A stretch of 64,000 bases of DNA from Cordylochernes scorpioides (lineage: Eukaryota > Arthropoda > Arachnida > Pseudoscorpiones > Chernetidae): positions 74,510,013 through 74,574,012 of the forward strand of contig CP092877.1 in assembly GCA_030710605.1 (NCBI GenBank). Reading direction: 5' to 3'. The stretch's first letter is position 1. Every line of letters starts with the position of its first letter. Shown here in pieces: positions 26,501-29,500 of the stretch. Under the pieces are notes generated by a model. The model did no database searches and was not told the origin of the DNA. It saw only the letters and a list, made by a program, of their open reading frames with translations. A program made the position numbers and the translations under genes.

Positions 26501-29500
26501 TATATAGAAGATTGTCTCCTGGAAGGATACACCTTGAAGAATGGGGAGAAAATACCCAAGGAAGGATTGGTTTGATAATCAAACAAATGGTCTTGACTTA
26601 AAAGATAGGAGGTGGGGGAAAAGAATTGGGTAGAATAAGGTGAAGTGGCCTTCCAAGAGTTGATACATCTCCATTGCAGAGATGGCTGGATGACCTAATG
26701 ATGAATGTTGTCATCTTGTCACAATATTCTGTTCCAGCATGTCACAATATTCTGTTCCAGCATGTCATTTCCTGTAACATTGTTTTGTTTCAAAATGTCC
26801 TCTCCTGTCACATTATTCTGTTCCAGGATGTCCTTTCCTGTAACATTTTTCTGTTCTAGGATGTCCTTTCCTGTAACATTTTTCTGTTCCAATATGTCAT
26901 CTCATGTCACAATGTTCTGTTCCAGGATGTTTTCTCCTGTCACAATGTTCTGTTCCAGGATGTTCTCTTCTGTCACAATGTTCTGTTCCAGGATGTTTTC
27001 TCCTGTCACAATGTTCTGTTCCAATATGTCATCTCTTGTCACAATGTTCTGTTCCAGGATGTTCTCTTCTGTCACAATGTTCTGTTCTATGATATCCTCT
27101 TCTGTCACAATGTTCTGTTCCAGGATATCCTCTTCTGTCACAATGTTCTGTTCCAGGGTGTTCTCTTCTGTCACAATGTTCTGTTCTATGATATCCTCTT
27201 CTGTCACAATGTTCTGTTCCAGGGTGTCCTGTCCTGTCACATTGTTCTGTTCCAGAATATCTTCTCCTGTCATATTGTTCTGTTCCAGGATGTCTTTCCC
27301 TGTCATATTGTTCTGTTCCAGGATGTCCTCTCCTGTCACAATGTTCTGTTCAGAATGTTCTCTCCTGTCACATTGTTCTGTTCAAGGATGTCTTTCCCTG
27401 TCACATTGTTCTGTTCAAGGATGTCTTTTCCTGTCATATTGTTCTGTTCTAGGATATCTTCTCCTGTCATATTGTTCTGTTCCAGGATGTCCTCTCCTGT
27501 CACAATGTTCTGTTCAGAATGTTCTCTCCTGTCACATTGTTCTGTTCAAGGATGTCTTTCCCTGTCACATTGTTCTGTTCAAGGATGTCTTTCCCTGTCA
27601 CATTGTTCTGTTCAAGGATGTCTTTCCCTGTCATATTGTTCTGTTCTAGGATATATTCTCCTGTCATATTGTTCTGTTCTAGGATATATTCTCCTGTCAT
27701 ATTGTTCTGTTCTAGGATATCTTCTCCTGTCATATTGTTCTGTTCTAGGATATCTTCTCCTGTCATATTGTTCTGTTCTAGGATATCTTCTCCTGTCATA
27801 TTGTTCTGTTCTAGGATATCTTCTCCTGTCATATTGTTCTGTTCCAGGATGTCCTCTCCTGTCACAATGTTCTGTTCCAGGATGTCCTCTCCTGTCATAT
27901 TGTTCTGTTCTAGGATATCTTCTCCTGTCATATTGTTCTGTTCTAGGATATCTTCTCCTGTCATATTGTTCTGTTCCAGGATGTATTTCCCTGTCACAAT
28001 GTTCTGTTCCAGGATGTCCTCAACACAGTTGGAGGTCTTCAGGCCCTGTACCCTCTGCTGGAGTTTGCCGGACGTCGGACTCTGCCAGGAGAACAACCTT
28101 CCTCTCCCATCAGGGACTCCGTGGATCCCACAACATCCCCCACAGAGGATGACTGGGTCATGCTCTCCCACACTTCTCACTCTGGTGATCCATTCAATTC
28201 TCCATATTTGCTACTTGATGCAAAAGCAAAAAAAAGTTATTTTGGTGAAAACAATTGCCCAGAGGATAGGTTTCTCATATATTTATGCACTCATGGACAA
28301 AACTTAAGGTTATCTCTTGTATCTTCAATAAAGGTCACTGTAATATCTTTCAGAGTTATTGTCTGAATCCTGATATACATGCTGAAAGGTACAACTTCCT
28401 TAAGTTTTGTCCATGAGTGTAGATATTTTTCATATCATTACCTGCCCTTCTCTTTTTGTCACTTTTTTTCCTCCTACATATTTACATATTAGGATATACA
28501 ACATAATATAATGCGGCTTGTGATTGTAAAACGACATTTGAAATACTTTCCCGCAAGTGTTTCTTTCAAACGAAAATTCAAAATTTTTATTTCAAATATA
28601 TATTTGAAATAAAATATATTTTAGTTCGTTTAAAAGAAACACTTGCGGGAAAGTATTTCAAATGTCACATTAGGATATATCAGATTACTGCCAATATAAT
28701 AAATAGTGTACAACCTCTTTTATGACTAAAAATTTGTTTGCAAGAGAAAGATATGAGAAATAGGCAAAGATATTGTTTGCGTAGATAATTTTTTCACATT
28801 TCTATCTCCATAACCTGACTGCCTAAAAAGATCCAAATGAAAGATCAAGGTGCTATCCTCTATATAAACCTTTAATATTTGGATCTTTTGACCATCATCA
28901 GATGGTAATAATATGGCTTCTCCATGTAACCACAACCATTCCATAAGATGTTGAATTGCATGCTGCATCGCCCGTCACGCAAAAATAAGCTTTAGGAGCA
29001 TGGACTCATGGAGTTTGTGTAAACTTCATACAAGAGAATAAGATACATAACAGAATTACACAGGTCTTCCATGTTAGGAAAAGCCTCAAATTACAGGCAA
29101 AGTCAGACTTTCACCAAACTGTGCCTGGATCATAGTGCCATTTCTTCTTCTTCTTCTTTCTTATCTCCACTCAATCATATTAGGGTATCCAGCTTGTAAA
29201 CCTTGAGACTTTTCATGGTGTCTGCCGGGGAAGAGTAGAGCTCATCAATGGATGAGTCAATACAGTCAATAATGTGTTTTGGAGTTGCAGGTTGAGAATT
29301 GCACTTAGTACATAGTGGGGAAAACCTTGCAACCATTCTGGAAAGTCATTGTCCATAGATGACCAGACTTAAGTTTGGAAATCAAAGACTGTTGTTCTCT
29401 TGGGAGGACAGAACCGGTGCTTCACCCAGTCATGATGGTTGTTATGGTGCCATGATTAACGAAAGCTACACCCCATTCCATGAGATTGAACTCATGGATT

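Follow-up and report, generated by a model that had tools for sequence, protein, structure and literature searches.

A 33-bp minisatellite across the predicted acceptor of an intron in an NBEAL-like gene of the pseudoscorpion Cordylochernes scorpioides

The DNA under study is a stretch of 64,000 nucleotides from Cordylochernes scorpioides (C15:74510013-74574012), here called the window, whose own numbering is used wherever no contig is named; the genome searched comprises 2.62 Gb in 24 contigs. The plus strand of the window carries an NBEAL-like gene for a BEACH protein, the exons of which were delineated from reading frames, splice signals and profile matches (Table 1). Scripted joining gave one open frame across the exons 24352-24700, 25977-26065 and 26118-26210 and from 28013 onward, with phase 0 on both sides of the last intron (26210/28013). 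An exon piece near 33 kb matches DUF4704, the Neurobeachin/BDCP solenoid (9.2e-5, 21.9 bits, cut-off 22.9), and on the same strand, about 2.3 kb beyond the end of the window, the segment C15:74576306-74582036 holds five of the 16 matches to the BEACH domain (PF02138) found in the genome. A search among solved structures yielded no relative. Transposons dominated a tblastn search with NBEA reading frames, and the matches left by filtering placed few or no NBEAL exons. At 36200-37783 the window also contains an open frame of 527 aa whose translation, judged by eye, resembles a retroelement product: a Gag-like protein with zinc knuckles and an aspartic protease.

Table 1 Features in and around the NBEAL-like intron, in window coordinates
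Feature	Position	Strand	Remarks
NBEAL-like exon	~22945-23200	+	left end uncertain; fits the next four exons by eye
NBEAL-like exon	24352-24700	+	frame and splice signals
NBEAL-like exon	25977-26065	+	frame and splice signals
NBEAL-like exon upstream of the array (counted earlier as exon 8)	26118-26210	+	frame and splice signals; ends RFH, phase 0, GTGAGT donor
Intron	26211-28012	+	1802 bp, phase 0; ~71% minisatellite, counted from 26736
33-bp minisatellite, ~39 copies	26717-28018	+	unit roughly GATGTCYTCTCCTGTCAYAWTGTTCTGTTCYAG (summary of column counts); degenerate left edge with 23-bp period
32-bp unit with 1-bp deletion	27322-27353	+	identical one at 27486-27517
Two open in-frame units	27947-28012	+	both translated after splicing to the AG that ends at 27946, one after splicing to that ending at 27979
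Last unit	27980-28012	+	predicted acceptor TTCCAG, preceded by a pyrimidine-rich stretch and a branch-point-like UGUCAC (A 16 nt before the end)
First 9 bases of the exon, common to the repeat unit	28013-28021	+	GATGTCCTC
NBEAL-like exon (counted earlier as exon 9)	28013-28198	+	frame and splice signals; right end approximate, hand-chosen

Most of this intron is occupied by a minisatellite, for which TRF gave a 33-bp repeat of 38.8 copies at 26740-28018, preceded by an edge of 23-bp period that starts at 26717. Decomposition into units yielded 38 full units, 26 of them distinct, and one short unit at the left, and the final unit ends exactly at 28012. A preliminary description of this DNA had spoken of a minisatellite built from a 3' splice site, and this is borne out: the array is real, its last unit is the predicted acceptor, and the exon takes up another 9 bp of the repeat. 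The same description had composed the unit of 25 intron and 8 exon bases; the unit does span the boundary, but we counted 24 bases from the intron and 9 from the exon, the repeat being in register with the predicted junction. All nine bases of the exon start GATGTCCTC match the start of the unit consensus. In a test anchored at the junction, the first 24 exon bases matched the units better than any of 500 shuffles did, and the probability that a random 9-mer is one of the 15 distinct ones found at unit starts is 5.7e-5. Unanchored local alignment of the exon start against the whole array gave p 0.27 for 40 bases and p 0.012 for 15 bases, that is, a similarity unremarkable at the former length and modest at the latter, and the case for the exon-start match therefore depends on the register.

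It had also been claimed that some 39 acceptors are lined up in front of the exon. Sites in tandem there are, but AG closes 34 of the 39 unit ends and has been lost in five (AA in three, AT in two); one extra AG in the degenerate left edge brings the total, counted from 26736, to 35. The AGs expected at 28011-28012 and 27978-27979 are both present. Upstream of the predicted acceptor lie 33 AG-bearing unit ends, plus the AG of the left edge, and six of the upstream sites share every base of the predicted acceptor between -20 and +3, and none does so between -24 and +9. All 38 full units keep the U and the A of a UNAY motif (UCAY in 35), the A standing 16 nt before the unit end, or 15 nt in both 32-bp units. 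Invariant columns amount to three of the nine derived from the exon and 13 of the 24 derived from the intron (Fisher p 0.44), and with no difference in invariance between the two sets there is no sign of selection on the splice signals.

The array had been likened to NAGNAG tandem acceptors, in which two NAGs differ by three bases (PMC3250501). Both have more than one in-frame AG, but AGs three bases apart do not occur here, the spacing being 32, 33 or 66 nt, mostly 33, and 23 at the left edge, and with a branch-point-like UNAY in each full unit the analogy fits poorly. By the scanning model, as known from human work, each unit would be an acceptor of its own and the sites would compete at the choice of the branch point, unlike in NAGNAG, because the AGs stand about 33 nt apart and every full unit has its UNAY.

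With regard to the reading frame, an open in-frame extension results only from the AGs ending at 27979 (11 codons) and 27946 (22 codons), just as had been proposed for acceptors one and two units upstream. The unit was said to be a multiple of three, which is true of most units but not of the two 32-bp units (from 27322 and 27486), where the triplet frame is broken. In-frame acceptors consequently are found only from 27517 rightward, since the 18 AG sites left of this position are frame-shifted by the two 32-bp units; the stop that had been expected in frame further left is encountered at 13 in-frame AG sites other than 27946 and 27979. Of the 33 unit ends with an AG upstream of the predicted acceptor, 31 altogether lead to a stop or a frameshift. 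As far as can be judged from the frames, length variants of the NBEAL protein through upstream acceptors would be possible.

Neighbouring units resemble each other more than distant ones do (lag-distance correlation 0.30, 0/2000 permutations). Divergence is greatest in the leftmost full unit, with 8.9 differences on average, and the rightmost, with 5.8, is only slightly above the mean of 5.29. The two identical units with the 1-bp deletion, 164 bp apart, suggest a block duplication of about 164 bp. This pattern of similarity is that of ordinary minisatellite turnover.

In its anatomical features the array corresponds to a 'mirage' minisatellite, a kind already described in amphioxus. For the globin gene BflGb6, Adh3 and TnC, the amphioxus reports describe units which span an exon-intron boundary and of which many copies keep the AG or GT (PMC3087553, PMC3902484). 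Amphioxus mirages are described at both 3' and 5' boundaries, with RT-PCR suggesting regular splicing (PMC3087553), and PGBD5 repeats were added to the examples in a text that cites Adh and TnC (PMC3902484). As in BflGb6, the array here lies at a predicted 3' splice site; common to the described amphioxus mirages and this array is also a concerted evolution inside, with the edge units left out, here mainly those of the left edge. The genome, at 2.62 Gb, is much larger than that of amphioxus. The copy number is higher than in BflGb6 (about 39 copies of 33 bp here versus 6 and 3 copies of 150-160 bp as given for BflGb6, the Adh3 units being given as 10-72 bp), and splicing was examined in the amphioxus reports, whereas this array is known from the genomic sequence of one assembly. 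Within human segmental duplications, internal tandem repeats at exon-intron boundaries can change splicing (PMC2812944). They belong to gene families whose transcripts were compared for such effects, whereas here we deal with one locus known from DNA alone. Among the titles listed in the literature searches there was no further 3' splice-site minisatellite outside amphioxus, by which we do not claim that none is in print. One study reportedly treats a minisatellite that multiplies splice sites, namely donors, as opposed to the acceptors of this array.

We consider it likely that the array is a splice-site duplication which was expanded by repeat turnover and whose exon-proximal copy still is a working acceptor. 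The last 24 bases of the NBEAL-like intron and the first 9 of the exon would have been duplicated in tandem, and unequal exchange or slippage would have expanded this short duplication to about 39 head-to-tail copies. Each full copy contains the components of a minimal acceptor, with a branch-point-like UNAY whose A lies 16 nt ahead of the unit end, a stretch rich in pyrimidines and, mostly, an AG that precedes the former exon start. The exon-proximal copy would have remained the working acceptor and the upstream copies would be mostly silent, any leak from them leading mainly to stops or frameshifts. Both the start at a splice site and the mechanism of expansion are what we infer from the build of the array; the exon-proximal copy most likely is the acceptor in use, because exon sequence follows it directly and splicing there keeps the phase and adds no residues. 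The array provides a natural test of how the spliceosome chooses among many nearly identical 3' splice sites in a row, of which six agree with the predicted one over 23 bases. Minisatellites derived from exon-intron boundaries apparently are not confined to lancelets and can reach dozens of copies, and their growth bears on models of intron growth as well as of intron gain from tandem repeats.

A regular use of the acceptors ending at 27946 and 27979, through which the DUF4704 solenoid would gain 22 or 11 residues at its start in a ratio set by array length or tissue, seems unlikely. Both do keep their AG and have open extensions, and the DUF4704 score of the joined exons rises from 12.6 bits with the 28012 junction to 14.5 when one unit is included and 16.9 when both are; shorter pieces gave 14.7 bits, 16.6 with one unit and 20.1 with a hand-made double unit. 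No shuffled insert was as good as the units in the joined exons (0/20, that is, 0/10 of 22 aa and 0/10 of 11 aa), and one out of ten in each set produced any match to the profile (12.2 and 10.7 bits). However, all of these gains stay under the Pfam cut-off of 22.9 and were compared to ten shuffles per length, a small sample; their direction nevertheless favours in-frame units over pure decoys. Neither the upstream exons alone nor the exon from 28013 alone matched DUF4704, and the match across the 28012 boundary, where phase and frame agree, is weak, below the cut-off and no better than with the units included. Against a regular use of the two acceptors also speak the 13 further in-frame AG sites that meet a stop and the 18 that shift the frame, the little identity that the unit peptide has by eye with the NBEA paralog at this place, and the regular splicing reported for amphioxus mirages (PMC3087553). 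Another unlikely possibility is a ladder of variable length built of self-contained 33-bp acceptor modules, where the exon-proximal ones would give +0, +11 or +22 residue forms of NBEAL, distal copies would be unproductive, and the copy number of an allele would tune the productive share of the mRNA.

Just as improbable as the regular use of both acceptors is an exonic origin, according to which the exon originally started a unit farther to the left, like that of NBEA, and the array is an expanded coding repeat of 11 codons whose upstream copies became intron. The length of the unit, 11 codons, is in accordance with this, as is the increase of the DUF4704 scores with translated units, and in terms of the profile NBEA is interrupted by an intron 11 residues farther upstream, which is where an exon longer by one unit would begin. 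On C2, an exon of the NBEA paralog starts with GATGTC at a position near, but different from, the NBEAL-like junction. No tandem array was found near the corresponding junction of this paralog, and the nearest of the 18 arrays in its 100 kb lies 132 bp from the Pfam-hit stretches compared, which are nine of the ten on C2 and not full exons. A coding past is at odds with the pyrimidine richness of the array (68% compared to 46% elsewhere in the intron) and with units that end like acceptors. Moreover, the spacing from LSP to DV.N.VGG in human NBEAL2, which we take to be the same as that given by the 28012 junction, leaves no room for 11 more residues, and because of this agreement the 28012 junction still is preferred over a longer exon.

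An origin by duplication of the splice site also has to be weighed against the view of an ordinary intronic minisatellite which ends at the acceptor by coincidence and matches the exon start by chance. The unanchored similarity is weak, the window is rich in such repeats (14 merged arrays with a score of at least 100), and two other arrays of the NBEAL-like gene stop 20-24 bp short of predicted splice sites; yet in the present array the last unit itself forms the predicted acceptor and the repeat proceeds 9 bp into the exon in register, which makes coincidence very unlikely. One of the two other arrays, with 77/121-bp units at 23220-24070, begins 20 bp past the donor at 23200; a mirage at this donor was sought there, with no anchored similarity found and an unanchored p of 0.19. 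The second one, at 46460-47753 (73 bp x 17.8, 99% matches), nearly fills an intron of the NBEAL-like gene. By eye, about 15 bp separate it from the donor at 46372 and about 24 bp from a phase-compatible acceptor, and as it lies inside its intron we rejected it as a further mirage. At 11681-15977, an array of 56 copies of 74 bp runs into about 100 N just after 15877, and array lengths in this assembly are therefore uncertain. Short arrays at 7999-8658, 31573-31854 and 42177-42427, on both strands and with GTCCTCT-type units of 73-76 bp, look by eye like a dispersed family.

The suggestion that the array titrates splicing factors would profit from the many acceptor-like sites in one transcript, but it is highly implausible, with one locus found in the genome searches and splicing factors being abundant. 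A typed query of 99 nt, made of units and run by blastn against the own genome, gave at least 16 matches, all within this array, with one candidate region scored. Likewise, a pattern of 30 bases with up to three mismatches was matched 32 times, always in this array, with 0 matches on the reverse strand and 0 in either control. Of the 19 genome matches to a longer query of 601 bases, 12 fell into other arrays, on C3 and C11, with an identity of 67-75%. Since the units of both differ from the present one, we do not count them as the same repeat and consider convergence probable, though C11 has a string in common with the splice-site array. The array at C3:9963500-9968600, on the reverse strand, has a different 33-bp unit about 70% alike (TGTTCTGTTCTTGGTGATTCTTCTTGTGGACAT), without an acceptor-like end, while the one at C11:75840200-75842500 consists of a different unit of 32 bp and by eye shares the 18-base string TTCTAGGATATCTTCTCC.
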